Shown: positions 260-10,137 of the stretch, piece after piece
How the letters are laid out: the number at the start of each line of letters is the position of its first letter
How positions within the stretch are numbered: position 1 is the first letter of the stretch
NCBI GenBank assembly: GCA_017470505.1
Contig: JAFUYO010000044.1
Span: forward strand, 1 to 48,518
Source: Butyrivibrio sp.
GTDB lineage: Bacteria; Bacillota; Clostridia; Lachnospirales; Lachnospiraceae
DNA length: 48,518 nucleotides
Reading direction: 5' to 3'
Position numbers and translations under genes: made by a program
Notes under the pieces: generated by a model
What the model saw: the letters and a program-made list of their open reading frames with translations, nothing else
Databases searched by the model: none
Told to the model about the DNA's origin: nothing

Positions 260-532
260 ATGGAAAGGACAATGATGATGAAAGAAATGTCAATCGACTT
301 AGAGACTTACAGCGACGTGAACATCACCAAGTGCGGTGCTTACAAGTACGCTGAGTCTGATGAATTTGAGATACTGCTCTTCGGTGTCTCGGTAGATGGT
401 GGACCCGTCAAGGTATACGACCTTGCCTGCGGCGATACTATCCCAAAAGAGATCCTTGCAGCATTATCTGATGAGAATGTAACCAAGTGGGCTTTCAATG
501 CTTCCTTTGAGCGCATCTGTCTCTCCAAATAA
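260..532 (+). pseudogene. N-terminal remnant of a prophage family A DNA polymerase
   Basis: The opening residues (MSIDLETYSDV, later KWAFNASFERICLS) match the 3'-5' exonuclease start of DNA polymerase I-type enzymes of Firmicutes phages and integrative elements. The acidic pair D-x-E of exonuclease motif I is present in SIDLETYS. Such polymerases are roughly 600-700 residues long; this frame stops after 90, immediately after FERICLSK, so all of the polymerase domain is missing. The most likely original start is within the ATG cluster at 272-280, behind a GGAAAGGA site. The 3' breakpoint abuts an hsdM fragment on the opposite strand. It is non-functional as a polymerase and marks a former prophage or mobile element. 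Confidence 0.7.
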
Positions 533-533
533 T

Positions 534-697
534 TCCTGGCATCGATAAATAGCACTTTGTCTTTAAGGTCTTCTGCCTTTCCCTTGTCGAAGTACCGGCA
601 TACAATACTGCTGAGAAGTCAGCTTAGATCCCTGGCGTAATAGATCTGCAGCTTCCCAAAGGTCTGCCTCCAATTTTTTAATGCTCTTATTGTCCAT
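534..697 (-). pseudogene. hsdM: Remnant of type I restriction-modification methyltransferase HsdM with an internal deletion
   Basis: Reading the minus strand from an ATG at 697, behind a strong GGAGGAAAG site (701-709), gives MDNKSIKKLEADLWEAADLL and then KLTSQQYCMPVL, the classic HsdM N-terminus. After CMPVL the frame changes. The next frame reads FDKGKAEDLKDKVLFIDARN, which belongs to the catalytic C-terminal half of HsdM, hundreds of residues further on. The gene has therefore lost its middle, including the SAM-binding motifs, and the rest of its 3' end. It sits just downstream of the ietAS operon, consistent with a decayed defence island. Identification is from the two conserved segments only. 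Confidence 0.72.
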
Positions 698-797
698 TAT
701 CTTTCCTCCAACTGTTTGCCTCGTCGGATCTTACACTCCTTCATTTTCATTCTATTCTTTATGCTGTCCCAAAATACGGACTTATTCAGTTAGGATA

Positions 798-3050
798 TCA
801 ATCAAAATGTATCTCTTCCTGACTAGACGCATAAATATCCAATTGATTTTGAACATCTATCCTATTTACAATCCAGCCGCGCAGTGTACATGCTTTAATA
901 AAATCATCTATCCGATTAATACCGTTAACTTCTTTCAACGTGACAACGACACCGAAATTTAACGGAACCCTCATTTGTGTACTGAGTCTTTCCTTTGATG
1001 TTACAGAAAGCCCCCACAAACGATCATCGTATGATTTCACAGGTTTGTTGCTATTCTTAACTATTCGAGAGATAAACTTTGTATTGTCCCATTTGCGGAA
1101 TTCTTTTCGTGACTGTCTCTCATCCATTCTGCTATCCGCATCATCCTGGACATTATCGTTGATATCGCTGATTTTTCCTTTATCATCCACAATTCTTCCG
1201 AATTTTAAAGATAACTCCCTGCCTGTATAATCAACGCCTTGTGTTCTTGAGCATTCCGGGAAATAGCATAATGTTGCTCTGGCAACATAAGGATACTTAT
1301 TATCATCATCCTTCGGCACTGGAATTGCATAGTTAGCAGTGCGGTATGAATCCGAAGTGCCATAAACAACAAATCGAATTTCGTCGCTTTCTGTTTCCAC
1401 AATTCTCCGAATATCCACAGGAACCACGCCATATCCCAGAACAGACTTGCTTTTTGTAGCCATTATTTTGTAATCCCATGCCGCCGCCGAATCAATTATT
1501 AATGCCTTAGCGACCTCCTTCGGCATTCCCATTACATCTATCAGGTAACACATTTTCCTACTAATCCAAGGGGCGGCAAATGATGTGCCATATACCCCTT
1601 CAGTTCCATAGGATGTATATGCGGTAATTCTGTCATCGTAATCCCCGCCATAATAAGAAACATCCGGCTTATTATAGAATGAAAGAATATTTCCCTTTCT
1701 GGAATAGCTTGCCGGTTGTCCGTCTCTCCTGACAGAGTTTACTACAAGTGAATTCAGCGAGTCCGCAGGCGAACCCACTCTTAAGATTCCCTCCCTAGTT
1801 TCACGATTGTCATTTGTTCCAGAAACTACAAAGATCACATTTTTTTTTGCTTGTATTTCATCTAAAGCCGCAGCGTCGAATGATACAAAGTTTCTTGACA
1901 CCTCATCATCTGTTCCTAACGAAAGATTCCATACGTGGATATCAGGATTTTCATTCACGATGTCCTTGATTTTTTTCACCAATCGTATCGTTGATATTCT
2001 GCTGGAGCAAACTCCAAAATGGCGAGCTCTAAATCTTCCGCATCCATCATCAAGCCATGGGTTCATTCTGGGACCGTCAACAATAATTGAAGTAACCTCG
2101 GTTCCATGATCTCTAAGAGCTAAATCGTTCTGATATTTTTCCATATCACTTATATAATCGTTATTGTCAACCCAGCTGCCAAAATAAACACTTTCGTCAA
2201 AGAAAGTATCAATAACTCCTATCACAGGCTCATTTTGGGGCTTGGGGATATCATACTCATCTCTCTTTTTCGGAGATATATCTTCTAAAGTAATTGATGA
2301 TAAATCTGCCGAAATCATAGAAATCATGTATGGTATCTTGTCATTTATGATTTCAAACAAATCTCTTGTGACAGAAATAGTATCGTCTCCATACGCTGTG
2401 TAAGGTAATTGAGCATCATCTACCCTTAGCTTTTCAAGCAAAAGCGATAAAGAAAGCTCAGACTTATAAAACGTGATCAAAAATGTATCTCTGTCAGGGA
2501 CTTCAGTAACACGTGGAACGTCGAACTTTTCCACAACCGAGCAGTCAATAATCAAGTCCCGAAGTTTTCCCTTTGCAAGCGAAAATCCTTCATAATCAAT
2601 ATTGCTGTTAGGTTCAGCAAAGTTCATAGGCGTAGCCTTCCCACCTAATCTTTTTTGCAGAAATTCCTTAGCCACCTGTAATTCTTCTATTGTTTTATTG
2701 ATTGTTTTTTCATCAACATAATGCGTAATAATATGGTTTTCTTCTCCCTCGGGCGCATCCGAAAACCTTGCGCCAACTACAGTATCATTAGTCGATTGTC
2801 GACTTGGTTTCAACAATTCTCTTACACGATTGGATTTCGCAATAATATCGTTATACCAAACATCAATCATCATTTTGTCGGTAATGCGCGGATTATCTTT
2901 ATAAAACCTAAGAACAGCGCGTAAACTATCAATCAGCTCATCTATCTTCTCCGTTGAAGTTTCTGCTTTTGCACGCAGGTTTCTCGCACCGGGCTTTTGA
3001 TTATTCTTTTCCCCTGTAAATCTGAGTTTTACTTGAAGTAACGGATTCAT
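798..3050 (-). CDS. ietS: IetS-like subtilisin family (S8) serine protease of an IetAS defence system
   Basis: A 750-residue protein whose middle third is a subtilase domain. The catalytic Asp is D281 (VIGVIDTFF), the His is H315 (LRDHGTEVTS), the oxyanion Asn is N413 (VSGTND), and the nucleophile Ser is S490 (YGTSFAAP). About 270 residues precede the protease and about 200 follow it; neither flank is recognised. No signal peptide or membrane segment is seen, so it should act in the cytosol. The start codon lies one base past the ietA stop, and its AAAGGAG site is inside the end of ietA, so translation is coupled. A cytosolic S8 protease paired with an AAA ATPase is the composition of IetAS, first described as blocking entry of exogenous plasmids and later listed among anti-phage systems. 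The target is unknown; presumably the ATPase delivers or unfolds a trigger or substrate protein. Confidence 0.8.
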   Translation of the reverse strand: MNPLLQVKLRFTGEKNNQKPGARNLRAKAETSTEKIDELIDSLRAVLRFYKDNPRITDKMMIDVWYNDIIAKSNRVRELLKPSRQSTNDTVVGARFSDAPEGEENHIITHYVDEKTINKTIEELQVAKEFLQKRLGGKATPMNFAEPNSNIDYEGFSLAKGKLRDLIIDCSVVEKFDVPRVTEVPDRDTFLITFYKSELSLSLLLEKLRVDDAQLPYTAYGDDTISVTRDLFEIINDKIPYMISMISADLSSITLEDISPKKRDEYDIPKPQNEPVIGVIDTFFDESVYFGSWVDNNDYISDMEKYQNDLALRDHGTEVTSIIVDGPRMNPWLDDGCGRFRARHFGVCSSRISTIRLVKKIKDIVNENPDIHVWNLSLGTDDEVSRNFVSFDAAALDEIQAKKNVIFVVSGTNDNRETREGILRVGSPADSLNSLVVNSVRRDGQPASYSRKGNILSFYNKPDVSYYGGDYDDRITAYTSYGTEGVYGTSFAAPWISRKMCYLIDVMGMPKEVAKALIIDSAAAWDYKIMATKSKSVLGYGVVPVDIRRIVETESDEIRFVVYGTSDSYRTANYAIPVPKDDDNKYPYVARATLCYFPECSRTQGVDYTGRELSLKFGRIVDDKGKISDINDNVQDDADSRMDERQSRKEFRKWDNTKFISRIVKNSNKPVKSYDDRLWGLSVTSKERLSTQMRVPLNFGVVVTLKEVNGINRIDDFIKACTLRGWIVNRIDVQNQLDIYASSQEEIHFD

Positions 3051-3051
3051 C

Positions 3052-4086
3052 TTAGTTCTCCTTTAATTTCCGTGACACACTGCTCTTTGGAATACGAGAC
3101 AATATCTCAATTTCTCTTGTTGTATAACCCTCATCACTAAGTCTTTGTATATCTATTTCTTTGTTATCGTTTAATGCAAAATATATTTTTCTCAGATAAT
3201 CGTACTCATTAGCCTCACTTGAAAATGCCACCGACGTTTTAATAATTTGCTTCAAATCTCCCGGGTAAGGAATCGTTTTCAGATTATTAAGGATTTTATT
3301 AAAAAGTCGCATATCCTGTCTTGAATTAGCATTCTTCTTTAATGTTGAAGACAGAAGTGAATCAGCTATTTCTATCAGGTCTTCATTTGAGTATCTATCA
3401 AACGATACCGTGGCATCAAACCTTCGTACTATAGCTTTATCAAAGCTAGTAAACAAATTTGTAGTAGCTATTATGATAATGTTTTCGTTTAACCTGTCTA
3501 ATTCTTTTATAAATGTAGATGTGACTCTCCCCATCTCTCTTAGGTCATTGGCATTAACTCTATCCAGTACCAATGCATCAATCTCATCCATCAATACAAT
3601 TATCTTCCCGAACGCAAGATGGTTTATCTCGTCAAACAGAACCGATACATTCTTGGCGGTTTCTCCAAGCCGACTGTCTATGAGCTGTTCAAAATCAACC
3701 CTCAAAAGGTCTCTTCCCAAAATACGTGCTATTTGATATGCGGATTCTGTCTTACCGGTTCCCGGAGCTCCATAAAATAAGAATTTACTCAAATCTGCCT
3801 TTTCGCTGATAGCTCTGGTTATTCCTAATATATCCTCTTCAATAATCTCTGGTAATAGCAACGGAGTATTGGTATATTCAACCTTTGTCAAATAGTGAAG
3901 ATTTTTATATGAACTCTGCGGGACATAATAATTTGCACTAGACACTAATTCCATAAGATATGTTGCCATAGCAGAATCACCGCTCTGATCAAACTCTCTT
4001 GCTATCTCAGCAACCTCAGAAATAAAAGCCTCCTCATTCTTTTCAACATGATATCTAACCAAATTCATAATACTTTGCTTTTTCAT
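3052..4086 (-). CDS. ietA: IetA-like AAA+ ATPase of an IetAS defence system
   Basis: A 344-residue AAA+ protein: Walker A GAPGTGKT at 106-113, Walker B IIVLMDEID at 162-170, sensor 1 IIATTN near 205-210, and an arginine-finger pair RRFD at 221-224. The N-terminal 90 residues are helical and unassigned. The last 35 residues (GYTTREIEILSRIPKSSVSR) have the look of a helix-turn-helix, which could bind DNA or the protease partner; this is inference. It is the first gene of a two-gene operon with ietS, behind a consensus promoter with paired operator-like repeats. The start ATG follows GAAAGGAATAAAACA. The family role is ATP-driven recognition or remodelling coupled to the S8 protease to exclude foreign DNA. 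Confidence 0.8.
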   Translation of the reverse strand: MKKQSIMNLVRYHVEKNEEAFISEVAEIAREFDQSGDSAMATYLMELVSSANYYVPQSSYKNLHYLTKVEYTNTPLLLPEIIEEDILGITRAISEKADLSKFLFYGAPGTGKTESAYQIARILGRDLLRVDFEQLIDSRLGETAKNVSVLFDEINHLAFGKIIVLMDEIDALVLDRVNANDLREMGRVTSTFIKELDRLNENIIIIATTNLFTSFDKAIVRRFDATVSFDRYSNEDLIEIADSLLSSTLKKNANSRQDMRLFNKILNNLKTIPYPGDLKQIIKTSVAFSSEANEYDYLRKIYFALNDNKEIDIQRLSDEGYTTREIEILSRIPKSSVSRKLKEN

Positions 4087-4410
4087 TGTTTTATTCCTTT
4101 CAGACGGATGCTCTTATACTTCAGTATCATTATATTGTTCTTTGGGACAAATGTCAATTCTTTTGGGACAAAACTTTGGCACCTTATTGTTCTATCCGAC
4201 ATTTTACACCGACATTTTCATCCTATAGAATTGTCGTAAATAACAAACCCACCCAAGATTGTCAAGTCATACACCGTAACATGTATCTTCTTGACACTCC
4301 CGAGTGGGTTTGTATTTTTGTAATCAATGCTGCTTAAGGATAAGCAGCCGCCATATTCAGTTTTCATCATATCGTGGCAATTTCAAATGTTGTAAATCAG
4401 TTGTAAATAG
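4087..4410. other. 324-base gene-free stretch with short repeats and two hairpins
   Basis: Apart from the ietA promoter, this stretch contains a 10-base direct repeat CCGACATTTT at 4196-4205 and 4209-4218. It also has a long imperfect inverted repeat (about 24-base arms, roughly 4244-4313, ACAAACCCAC... pairing with ...GTGGGTTTGT) and a perfect small hairpin GCTGCTTA-AGGA-TAAGCAGC at 4329-4348. The long inverted repeat could be a terminator-like structure or a tiny non-autonomous transposable element; no coding potential is convincing. Confidence 0.45.
4129..4171 (-). promoter_or_regulatory. ietA promoter with two direct-repeat operator-like sites
   Basis: On the minus strand TTGACA (4157-4152) is followed after exactly 17 bases by TATAAT (4134-4129), a consensus sigma-A promoter 40-70 bases ahead of ietA. 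The same 10-mer, TTGTCCCAAA, occurs twice in direct orientation, at 4171-4162 and 4150-4141, spaced 21 bases apart (two helical turns). One copy lies upstream of the -35 box and one lies between -35 and -10. The shared core TGTCCCAAAA also occurs at 763-772, beyond the 3' end of ietS. This arrangement suggests binding by a repressor or by one of the system's own proteins; the binder is not identified. Confidence 0.7.
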
Positions 4411-4656
4411 TTGCTGTTCTCGCTGAAAGCATCGGAATTATCAAGGTTTCAGACTTCGGTAGCAACTCACTTCAATTACCACCCGAACTATATTTCTTCT
4501 CTTTTACATAGGGAGACCGGGAGAAAATTCACCGAAATACTGTTAGAAAAAAGAATGGAAAGAGCCGTGCTTCTTATGAAGCATACGACCCTCTCCATTG
4601 AGGAAATATCTTCAATGCTCGGCTATAGCAACCACAGCAATTTCTATATCCGAAAA
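4411..4656 (+). pseudogene. Fragment of an AraC-family transcription regulator (DNA-binding domain)
   Basis: The frame reads HFNYHPNYISSLLHRETGRK, then EKRMERAVLLMKHTTLSIEE, then ISSMLGYSNHSNFY, which is most of the double helix-turn-helix domain of AraC-type regulators. The N-terminal ligand or sensor domain is absent, and the domain breaks off at SNFY, before the usual F-K-x-x-x-G-x-S-P ending. From there the sequence becomes an rsgA fragment on the opposite strand. It is truncated at both ends and has no plausible ribosome site, so it is a pseudogene. Confidence 0.7.
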
Positions 4657-4796
4657 GGTATCATCAATACCTTCAGCGGTATTTGCCATGCCTATTTCGC
4701 GCATTCCGGGAGTGTCAATAAAGCAGATTGTATTTCCGGGTACCAGGTACTGCCTTAGTTCCTCAAGGCCGATGCCATGTAACCCCGCATGAATAC
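4650..4796 (-). pseudogene. rsgA: Fragment of ribosome-associated GTPase RsgA with an internal deletion
   Basis: The minus strand reads HGIGLEELRQYLVPGNTICF and then directly IDTPGMREIGMANTAEGIDD and TFSDIE. The first part resembles the segment just before the P-loop of circularly permuted RsgA/YloQ GTPases. The second is the switch II region, IDTPGMRE. The P-loop (GxSGVGKS) that should lie between them is missing, so this copy carries an internal deletion of about 50 residues and cannot bind GTP. It overlaps the broken end of the AraC fragment. Confidence 0.6.
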
Positions 4797-4877
4797 TGCG
4801 ATTGAGTGCGCCACTCTATTAAAAGTACTCTGAGCCCAGTATTTATGCGCTGCTCCAACAGCAGTTTTTTAGACTTC

Positions 4878-6020: not shown

Positions 6021-7070
6021 AAAAAAGATCCTGCAATGTTTTTGCAGATTCATGAACCGCCTGTAATGATCGATGAAGTGCAGTATGCACCGGAGCTCTT
6101 TTCATATATCAAGATCGCAATAGACAAAGGTGCTGCCCCGGGGTCATTCTGGCTTACAAGCTCACAAGCCTTCAAGCTCATGGACCTGGCACAGGAGTCA
6201 TTGGCCGGAAGAGTTGCAATACTCCGGCTCCCTCCCCTTTCGCAGCACGAAACATATGGAAAAGATGAGTCCAGTCCATTTTCTGTTGATCTTAACGAAC
6301 TTAAGAAACGGAAAAAGACACATGCGCCTGCTTCATTGGATGAAATCTATGAACGCATCTGGATGGGAGGAATGCCCGGTCTTATCAGTGGAAAATTTAC
6401 TGACAGAGATGTTTACTACAGCAGTTACATCCAGACATACATCGAAAGGGACGTAAGCGACCTGATCCAAGGAGTAGATAAGCTTTTATTCCAAGACTTT
6501 ATAAGGTCTGCTGCATCAAGGATAGGCGAAGTACTTAATGTACACGCCATAGCCGGAGATGTCGGAATAAACGATGATACCGCCAAACGGTGGCTCCAGG
6601 TTCTTGAAAAATCTGAGATCATCACACTGCTTCGGCCTTACAGTAACAATCTGCTCCATAGAACAATCAAGACACCGAAGCTGTATTTCTTTGATACCGG
6701 CCTTGTGGCTTACCTGACAAAATATTCAACCCCAGATATTCTTGCAAACGGCGCTCTAGCTGGGCATATCCTTGAAAACTACGTTGTCATGGAGATCGTC
6801 AAATCCTATAAAAACGCTGCTAAAGATTGCCTGTTCTGGTATTACCGGGATAAAGACAATAAGGAAGTCGATATGATCCTTGAAAGTGATGGAATGCTCC
6901 ATCCAATAGAGGCCAAAAGATCGGTCAACCCTGGAACTGAGCTGATAGGCGCTTTCTCAGTACTAGACAAAGCAACAACACCAAGAGGCTGCGGCGCGAT
7001 AATATGCATGCGACCTGAACTTTCAGCTGTAGACATTAATAACCTGATAGTTCCCGTGTGGTATATATAA
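6021..7070 (+). pseudogene. N-terminally truncated DUF4143 AAA ATPase
   Basis: The frame opens after a stop at 6012-6014 and reads DPAMFLQIHEPPVMIDEVQY, which is mid-protein in the ATP-binding/DUF4143 family (usually about 400-430 residues). Walker B (VMIDEVQ) is present, followed by LTSSQAFKLM, the characteristic ESLAGRVAILRLPPLSQ, a DUF4143 region (YIQTYIERDV, GDVGINDDTAKRWLQ) and the nuclease-like C-terminal segment WYYRDKDNKEVDMILESDG. The first 70-90 residues with Walker A are absent, and no ribosome site precedes the ATG at 6036. It is probably dead. The breakpoint lies just downstream of the marR operators. Confidence 0.75.
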
Positions 7071-8646: not shown

Positions 8647-10137
8647 TTAGGACTGCCCGGATGATTCTTCTTCGCCTCCTTCGGAGCCATTCTCCGTGTC
8701 ATCCTCGCTTTCCTTCTTTTCTTCTTCCTTTTCAGATTCCTCTTCCTCGTTTTCGGAATCTTCTTCCTTCTTTTCTTCCTCTTCCGTTGTCTTGTTTTCT
8801 TCCTCTTCTTCGGCTTTCTTTTTCTCTTCCTCTTCAGCTTTCTTCTTCTCTTCTTCTTCGGCCTTCTTCTTTTCTTCCTCTTCTTCCGCTTTTTTCTTCT
8901 CTTCTTCAGCATTCTTCTTTTCTTTCTCTTCTTCGGCTTTCTTTTTCTCTTCCTCTTCGGCTTTCTTCTTTTCTTCCTCTTCTTCCGCCTTCTTCTTCTC
9001 TTCTTCCTCCTGCTTTTTGAGCTGTTCCTCTTCCGTTTCCTTGCTGCTTGAAGTGTCGGTATCTGCAGAAGTCTGATTTTCCGTATCTCCAATCATCATG
9101 TCCATGAGATTCTGGAGCTTACCTTCATCGATTCCCGAGTCATTATCCATCGTAACCTTGATCTTGTTCGGATTAGGCTTAATATACTTGACTACGTATT
9201 CGCCTTCATCAGATATTCCGGGCACAGGATGCTCTACTATGTACCTGAATATCGCCTCGCACCCCTTTACGGAATAATGAAGTCCGTCGCCTCCGTTATA
9301 CTCTGACTTAACCTGCCCGTCAGAGCCTTTGAGAAGTTCTGCTATATCGAGATAAAAAATATGCTTCTCCTTTGCAGTCTCCAGCAAAAACGCATTGTAT
9401 TTATCTATCCATGCGTTCCGGACATTCTCTTTGTAGATTCCGTTATCATCGACGGGACCGATCGCCACGAGTACAACATTGGAATTAGGTGCCATGTCGA
9501 TGACACTGTCTATAAGCGTAACAAATGTATTCTTATAATGCTCCTCGCTCGAATCATTGACCCCGTTTACTCCCAGCAGAATATAGATGACCGGAGCCTG
9601 ATGAGATGCCAGATATGATTTTAAAGTATATTCTTTGCCGGCATTATTCATAAATGTATTGGATGCAAATGCCGGGTGCGATATTCCGATCTGAGCCAGA
9701 GCGGCATCGTCGTTGAAGAACCCGTAGTTGACCATCGCAACCGTTCTGGAATCACCGAGAAAGACGCATCTGTTAAGATATCCATCCCTGGTGCCTTCTT
9801 TTTCCGAAAGAACGGTTGTATCCGAAGTTGATTCCGTCTTCATACCTTCAGTCGCTGTCTCGACAACGGGCATATCCCCATCACCTGCAGCTGCATTCTG
9901 AGTTTCACCGCCAGACACCACTTCCTCTCTCAAACCATCGCTGTCCTTAAAAAAAGGCCCCAAGGAGCTATTCATGTATCCGCTTTTGACCGCAAAGAAC
10001 AAAATAACCCCGATTGTAACCGCGAAAATGGCAATAGAGCTGATGATCAGCTCCCTTTTTCCAAGGCTCCACGTCATATTTGCAAAGAAGTTACTCGCTG
10101 CTCTTCTCTTATGTTTCCCGGATCTTCTCTTTCTCAT
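8647..10137 (-). CDS. Membrane-anchored SGNH/GDSL hydrolase with a Glu/Lys/Ala repeat tail
   Basis: A 496-residue protein: a basic cytosolic start (MRKRRSGKHKRR), one membrane helix at about 30-50, a Ser/Thr/Glu-rich stalk to about 118, then an SGNH hydrolase domain. Block I is CVFLGDSRTV (Ser130), the block III Asn is in LLGVNGVND, and the block V Asp/His pair is in GGDGLHYSVKG. The last 140 residues are a low-complexity tract of E-E-E-K-K-K-A units (about eight) passing into a Glu/Ser-rich end. The enzyme should face outside and act on acyl or acetyl esters of a surface polymer. The charged tail could form a long single helix or bind the cell wall or cations. It sits upstream of the sugar acetyltransferase gene. 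The start follows AGAGGACCAGG. Confidence 0.85.
   Translation of the reverse strand: MRKRRSGKHKRRAASNFFANMTWSLGKRELIISSIAIFAVTIGVILFFAVKSGYMNSSLGPFFKDSDGLREEVVSGGETQNAAAGDGDMPVVETATEGMKTESTSDTTVLSEKEGTRDGYLNRCVFLGDSRTVAMVNYGFFNDDAALAQIGISHPAFASNTFMNNAGKEYTLKSYLASHQAPVIYILLGVNGVNDSSEEHYKNTFVTLIDSVIDMAPNSNVVLVAIGPVDDNGIYKENVRNAWIDKYNAFLLETAKEKHIFYLDIAELLKGSDGQVKSEYNGGDGLHYSVKGCEAIFRYIVEHPVPGISDEGEYVVKYIKPNPNKIKVTMDNDSGIDEGKLQNLMDMMIGDTENQTSADTDTSSSKETEEEQLKKQEEEEKKKAEEEEEKKKAEEEEKKKAEEEKEKKNAEEEKKKAEEEEEKKKAEEEEKKKAEEEEKKKAEEEEENKTTEEEEKKEEDSENEEEESEKEEEKKESEDDTENGSEGGEEESSGQS
8725..9020 (-). repeat. Degenerate tandem repeat coding E/K/A units
   Basis: A purine/pyrimidine-skewed tract (GAA/GAG/AAG/AAA/GCC codons read from the minus strand), with period 24-33 bases, encodes the EEEEKKKAEE units of the SGNH hydrolase tail. 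Such tracts expand and contract by slippage, and because they lack stops in several frames they create spurious long open frames on both strands. Confidence 0.8.

Follow-up and report, generated by a model that had tools for sequence, protein, structure and literature searches.

The ietS-ietA operon and its products

We analysed a 48,518-nucleotide stretch of DNA from Butyrivibrio sp. (assembly GCA_017470505.1, contig JAFUYO010000044.1), called the window below. The window is the entire contig, and its left end is therefore an assembly end. On the minus strand we found an operon of two genes: an ietA-like gene (3052..4086) encoding an AAA ATPase of 344 amino acids, a candidate antitoxin, and an ietS-like gene (798..3050) encoding a subtilase of 750 amino acids, a candidate toxin. 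Both open reading frames (ORFs) are intact, and a single base (3051) lies between them. Upstream of ietA is a promoter with a -35 element TTGACA (4152..4157, minus strand) and a -10 element TATAAT (4129..4134, minus strand), separated by a 17-base-pair (bp) spacer. This promoter is overlapped by a putative operator, a tandem repeat of TGTCCC that is conserved together with the operon.

The promoter (4157-4129) matches the consensus at 12 of 12 positions and is the sole such site among the 20 promoter-like matches that a promoter scan gave in 600-4700; shuffled sequences gave a mean of 13.7 matches. The first-pass annotation, which had described a one-base-spaced operon with its own consensus promoter, was thus right on both counts. 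One copy of the pair was found in the host genome, which is 84% complete. The gene order recurs in homologues: ietA shares the strand of ietS in 118 of 122 loci, a count that includes near-identical copies, and in 114 of these 118 the spacing ranges from a 44-bp overlap to 9 bp apart. Shortened, ATG-only ORF calls are involved in the remaining four.

The S8 catalytic domain of IetS (residues 274-540; 1431..2231, minus strand), recognised by Pfam (Peptidase_S8, E 3.1e-30), carries D281, H315, N413 and S490 in the motifs VIGVIDTFF, RDHGTEV, SGTND and GTSFAAP. These catalytic residues, noted earlier as intact, are invariant across 63 aligned IetS proteins. The maximal hydrophobicity over 19 residues (Kyte-Doolittle) is 1.12 and 1.44 for the two proteins, neither of which thus has a strongly hydrophobic stretch of that length; this fits a cytosolic location, as had been proposed for the protease. 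The flanks of the catalytic domain, about 270 residues on the N-terminal side and 200 on the C-terminal side, had been called unassigned, and Pfam indeed gives no match for either, but a C-terminal beta region (about residues 553-705; 936..1394, minus strand) resembles that of the subtilases KP-43 and SubHal. The N-terminal part (residues 1-272; 2235..3050, minus strand) is an alpha/beta region in the structure model m8936c0c58d71. Among the long matches of the structure search, 3afg_B extends into this part, from residue 96 onwards, a single weak structural lead by which the region is perhaps propeptide-like. This alignment is too weak for the name propeptide to be given. KP-43, SubHal and Pro-N-Tk-SP are secreted enzymes, whereas IetS lacks a hydrophobic leader and has the 270-residue N-terminal part.

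IetA contains a classic AAA domain of the FtsH, PAN, Rpt and Trip13-like kind (residues 103-230; 3397..3780, minus strand; Pfam AAA, E 1.9e-26) with Walker A GAPGTGKT, Walker B MDEID, the sensor ATTN and the arginine pair RRFD. The Walker motifs had been described as intact, which agrees with key residues that are invariant across 61 aligned proteins. The C-terminal end reads 'GYTTREIEILSRIPKSSVSRKLKEN' and is predicted to form a helix-turn-helix (HTH) at residues 313-343 (3058..3150, minus strand). In the AlphaFold model three helices (313-318, 323-330 and 334-343) take up the layout of such a motif, with a block predicted local distance difference test (pLDDT) score of 89-94 for residues 311-340, and helices 2 and 3, the latter being the putative recognition helix, are nearly constant within the branch of relatives described below. 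A Pfam search of the 46-residue end alone gave no match, and the one weak match of this IetA to HTH_38 lies at residues 114-126, inside the ATPase part. As Pfam recognises no such family at this end, the HTH assignment is based on the structure model and on sequence conservation. By eye, HTH-like ends are also apparent in more distant IetAs, which share 27-36% identity in the aligned part and whose 11 loci contain no upstream DNA; seven further loci gave no IetA match.

When both proteins were searched against IetA and IetS profile models, the best PADLOC matches were IetS (E 1.3e-58) and IetA (E 4.8e-39), in agreement with the first-pass identification of the pair as IetAS. This identification holds only in part, as the NCBIfam equivalogs for anti-phage IteA and IteS scored 108.4 of 510 and 147.2 of 900 bits. 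These scores fall far below the curated cut-offs, and the pair was therefore not filed under those equivalogs. PHROGs has families for both proteins (338 and 228 bits), neither with an assigned function. Sequence comparison places the pair in a separate branch, mostly Bacillota by record title, with more distant members in Mollicutes. Genome contigs yielded 441 relatives, of which the best 80 were retained, and the nearest named ones are Butyrivibrio metagenome-assembled genomes. The distribution of the branch is patchy. Five of 61 close genomes have a match, four of them full length at 40% identity or more, and across the phylum 21 of 398 genomes have a match, nine of these belonging to the branch (both genome sets include the window's own genome). 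Relatives at 41-42% identity are plasmid-borne, and others lie on contigs classed as viral.

Tandem TGTCCC sites at the ietA promoter

The putative operator consists of a distal copy of TTTGTCCCAAA just upstream of the -35 element (4162..4172, minus strand) and a proximal copy of TTTGTCCCAAA, 21 bp away, inside the spacer between -35 and -10 (4141..4151, minus strand). We counted TGTCCC pairs, permitting a spacing of 19 to 23 bp, in the 93 of 98 branch loci that had usable upstream DNA (L042, L043, L049, L063 and L116 were dropped). Both hexamers are exact in 71 of the 93, at a spacing of either 20 bp (37 loci) or 21 bp (34 loci) and no other. With one mismatch or none in one copy the count rises to 88, and every locus has at most two mismatches in total over both sites. 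In the controls no pair was found on the reverse strand or in ietA coding DNA, and 20 rounds of shuffling gave means of 0 and 0.05. When the loci were thinned so that no two retained upstream stretches were 80% alike over 60 bases, the pair was exact in 53 of 72 and within one mismatch in 68. It was also exact in all 10 loci from outside the discovery set, nine of them new; L149 repeats the upstream DNA of L102. Record titles of the loci carrying these sites, perfectly or with a single mismatch, include Lachnospiraceae, lactobacilli, Streptococcus, Listeria and Treponema.

The spacer between -35 and -10 measures 17 bp in 55 of the 78 loci in which both promoter hexamers are recognisable, with the proximal site lying within it. 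Such a spacer points to a promoter that needs no activator, and a protein bound within the spacer is likely to obstruct polymerase. Across 14 diverged loci (IetS identity below 60%, sufficient flanking sequence), values above 1.1 bits are confined to columns that belong to the two sites or adjoin them. Columns rich in A/T at other positions, among them the -10 region, come to about 1 bit; the contribution of the promoter hexamers to the footprint is therefore small. The two sites together form a 26-27-bp signature of the branch that should be of use to annotators. Three Butyrivibrio copies have further TGTCGG-like repeats upstream of the two TGTCCC sites, at 4191-4221 in the window and likewise ahead of ietA in L076 and L034; these are perhaps weak extra sites.

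A strict pattern was run against 40 genomes, 24 with the pair and 16 without. It gave 20 matches, 16 of them at ietA promoters; only 16 of the 24 ietAS genomes are caught, because the pattern forbids mismatches. The four matches elsewhere compare with 12 for the reversed-pattern control. In the host genome a looser pattern found the present site and two G+C-richer ones, compared with 11 for its reversed control. Since matches elsewhere do not exceed the reversed controls, the operator looks dedicated to the ietAS operon, and a wider regulon, which we had considered, is unsupported. The same observations bear on whether a repressor of the host, instead of IetA, binds the two sites. We regard this as very unlikely, as the same sites occur across several bacterial groups, are seldom met at other places in the searched genomes and have the ietAS pair as their sole constant partner.

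Diverged pairs allow the operator to be compared with the recognition helix. In two pairs on Macrococcus plasmids the third helix differs (ISISTLSRE), and the IetA of M. hyorhinis has lost its third helix and has no intact HTH end. TGTCCC is absent from the 300 bp upstream in all three, where the best pairs of sites are no better than in shuffled DNA. The Carnobacterium plasmid pair has an IetS as diverged as that of Macrococcus, and its helix and sites are kept, with one mismatch. The C-terminus of proteobacterial IetAs is also HTH-like, but of another sequence and with a different recognition helix. Upstream of them we noticed a possible tandem site, [CT]GTA[TG]C-N15-CGTTAC, with a 21-bp step in nine of 12 loci (five sequence types) and no occurrence in L188, L146 or L148. 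This pattern, chosen after looking and without a chance control, is only a hint of a proteobacterial operator.

Genomic setting and mobility

The operon lies within a block (802..4461) that is shared at 96% DNA identity with Butyrivibrio sp. SIG348, where the flanks are unrelated, and that we take as the horizontally moving unit. Positions 802-4174 are 90% identical in Butyrivibrio sp. RGIG2449, again between unrelated flanks. Recent transfer is thereby shown, and the setting fits a small cassette that is mobile and inserts at variable places. Upstream of the promoter, a long imperfect inverted repeat (4243-4313; ACAAACCCAC...GTGGGTTTGT) is common to the window and L076, and may be a terminator that shields the cassette, or else an end of the element.

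Several gene fragments border the operon. Downstream, a 36-residue remnant (590..697, minus strand) is 81% identical to the start of the hsdM gene of L045, which encodes HsdM_N and N6_Mtase domains. In L045 a complete hsdM follows within about 70 bases after ietS, and the window keeps a scrap of the same order. The scrap was identified through L045 only; plasmids, Pfam and the rest of the host genome gave no match. Further out lies a remnant of a phage DNA polymerase (260..532, plus strand; PHROG 17, E 5.9e-17), and at the upstream edge a fragment of an AraC-type regulator (4411..4755, plus strand; Pfam HTH_18, E 3.7e-12). A fragment at 4615-4815 (minus strand), which we take to resemble the small-subunit GTPase RsgA, matched nothing in Pfam, and the genome yielded no second copy of it. 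The hsdM, phage polymerase and araC fragments at the edges could mean that the pair has itself decayed along with its surroundings. We consider this extremely unlikely: both frames are intact, no fault is seen in the catalytic residues or the promoter, and another Butyrivibrio has the block at 96% identity.

The nearest neighbours of 86 branch loci comprise 149 ORFs, of which 130 were scanned (the longest and near-duplicates, 19 in all, were dropped). No family occurs in more than four of the 130, with methylases, integrases and TIR domains standing beside metabolic genes; there was no baseline set. From the neighbours scanned, a fixed third gene can therefore be set aside, as can a consistent placement of homologues in housekeeping operons, which would have spoken against a defence role. 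The hsdM and phage fragments cited earlier in favour of a defence island are real, but the mixed neighbours of the homologues leave such an island unproven. Three individual neighbourhoods can be recorded. In M. hyorhinis (L143) the pair adjoins methyltransferase genes, one of which carries a type III restriction-modification annotation; a distant AAA/S8 pair on an E. faecium plasmid (L200) sits between two TIR-domain genes; and on an Acidovorax plasmid (L146) iteAS adjoins a Shedu nuclease gene on the opposite strand. Elsewhere in the window, 6036-7070 (plus strand) encodes a DUF4143/AAA_14 protein that looks N-terminally truncated, its AAA_14 match starting mid-profile, and 8647-10137 (minus strand) encodes a protein that has a single hydrophobic segment near its N-terminus and a long, low-complexity tail rich in Glu and Lys.

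Proposed control of the protease and related systems

What pairs of this kind do is described in several papers, cited here from excerpts. In sgiAT of SGI1, which is related to the IetAS of pTiC58, the protease is the toxin and the ATPase the antitoxin in E. coli, and under its own promoter sgiAT gave no post-segregational killing (PMC5006074). The pair of M. mycoides subsp. capri behaved as toxin and antitoxin in mycoplasma and E. coli assays (PMC8562856), and in syn3A a knockout of the ATPase alone was lethal, whereas knockouts of the pair or of the protease were not (PMC6755753). A survey of P. aeruginosa isolates tied IetAS statistically to phage resistance, with the mechanism stated as unknown (PMC11878078). 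By analogy, the protease would be the toxin and the ATPase the antitoxin here; toxin-antitoxin is the tested description of the related pairs, and defence may be one of its uses. The exclusion of foreign plasmids, given as a known function in the first-pass annotation, found no support in these excerpts, which speak of stability, incompatibility and toxin-antitoxin activity. The IetAS label of PADLOC should be read with caution, since it also takes in a branch with relatives that, where assayed, proved to be toxin-antitoxin systems.

We propose, with a probability of about two in three, that the pair is a mobile toxin-antitoxin module that represses its own promoter, with the AAA antitoxin doubling as the repressor. 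Free IetS, a cytosolic subtilase, would harm the cell, and IetA would keep it inactive. The C-terminal HTH of IetA would bind the two TGTCCC sites, which would face the same side of the double helix at a distance of two turns, and so repress its own promoter. Loss or inactivation of IetA, through loss of the element, phage attack or stress, would then both free the protease and lift repression. We infer the binding of the HTH to the operator, the resulting repression and the trigger. Direct repeats two turns apart would suit a ring or another oligomer with several HTH arms, as opposed to a dimer on a palindrome. Autorepression would also explain the absence of post-segregational killing by sgiAT under its own promoter.

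Several points weigh against this proposal. The link between helix and operator is supported by three diverged pairs only, in none of which was a replacement operator found. The loci remain related even after thinning, and the -35 element has three or four mismatches in 14 of the 93. Among the Pfam families listed (25 of 107), no HTH family appears at the ends of the 61 IetAs, and the matches in the structure search of IetA are taken up by its AAA domain. M. hyorhinis stands in for the syn3A pair in our sequence comparison.

The HTH might instead be chiefly a sensor or an activator, with IetA binding invader DNA or activating the promoter. AAA proteins with a C-terminal HTH do include activators, such as NtrC. 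The authors of PMC5006074 read the absent effect of sgiAT as a need for positive activation, which favours an activator and counts against autorepression. We hold a sensor or activator to be distinctly unlikely, given the 17-bp spacer, which needs no activator, and the site between -35 and -10, where binding is expected to be obstructive. Alternatively, IetA could be the motor of a two-part ATP-dependent protease, in which it would unfold proteins of an invader and pass them on to IetS, much as proteasomal ATPases and FtsH do for their proteolytic parts, and the HTH would then serve regulation only or the finding of invader DNA. This, too, is unlikely in our estimate: known subtilases work alone, our analysis showed no docking motif or chamber, and in those relatives that have been assayed the protease on its own is toxic and the ATPase protects.

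DnaA and NtrC both combine an AAA domain with a C-terminal HTH. A bolder form of the toxin-antitoxin proposal, which we offer as speculative and improbable, makes IetA a single ATP-driven switch with two outputs. The AAA ring would clamp the protease while several HTH arms grip the tandem operator, and a change of nucleotide state, or invader DNA or protein drawing IetA off, would set the protease free and switch on the promoter at the same time, so that the antitoxin would be the sensor. Across the family the two-turn spacing would be kept and the hexamer would vary with the recognition helix, as the proteobacterial pattern hints.

A gut bacterium thus appears to carry a mobile two-gene kill-switch, probably a toxic protease and an ATPase that seemingly restrains it. 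IetAS-type pairs appear in many defence surveys, yet the literature excerpts say little about their control. An operator conserved over several orders (by record title), together with a predicted DNA-binding end, makes the question of how the protease is silenced and released testable. The excerpts on such pairs, the founding 2009 paper aside, make no mention of the operator or the HTH end; the pair is known in kind, and priority for these two features cannot be claimed.

Among known systems, the mycoplasma AAA-ATPase/subtilase pair (A132/T133; _0132/_0133 of JCVI-syn2.0 and syn3A) has the same gene order and similar sizes, 353 and 757 amino acids compared with 344 and 750 here. The M. hyorhinis member aligns over nearly its full length, with 38% identity for IetS and 46% for IetA. 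The IetAS of pTiC58 and sgiAT of SGI1 share the same two domains in the same order. The proteobacterial IetS members aligned are 22-28% identical to the window IetS, and their IetAs also have an HTH-like C-terminus, whereas the TGTCCC pair was not seen in the upstream DNA examined. With autoregulated type II toxin-antitoxin operons the window pair shares an upstream antitoxin gene, a single operon and predicted binding of the antitoxin at its own promoter. Typical type II operators are inverted repeats. The pair described here differs in that its candidate antitoxin is a full AAA ATPase and its sites are direct repeats two turns apart.

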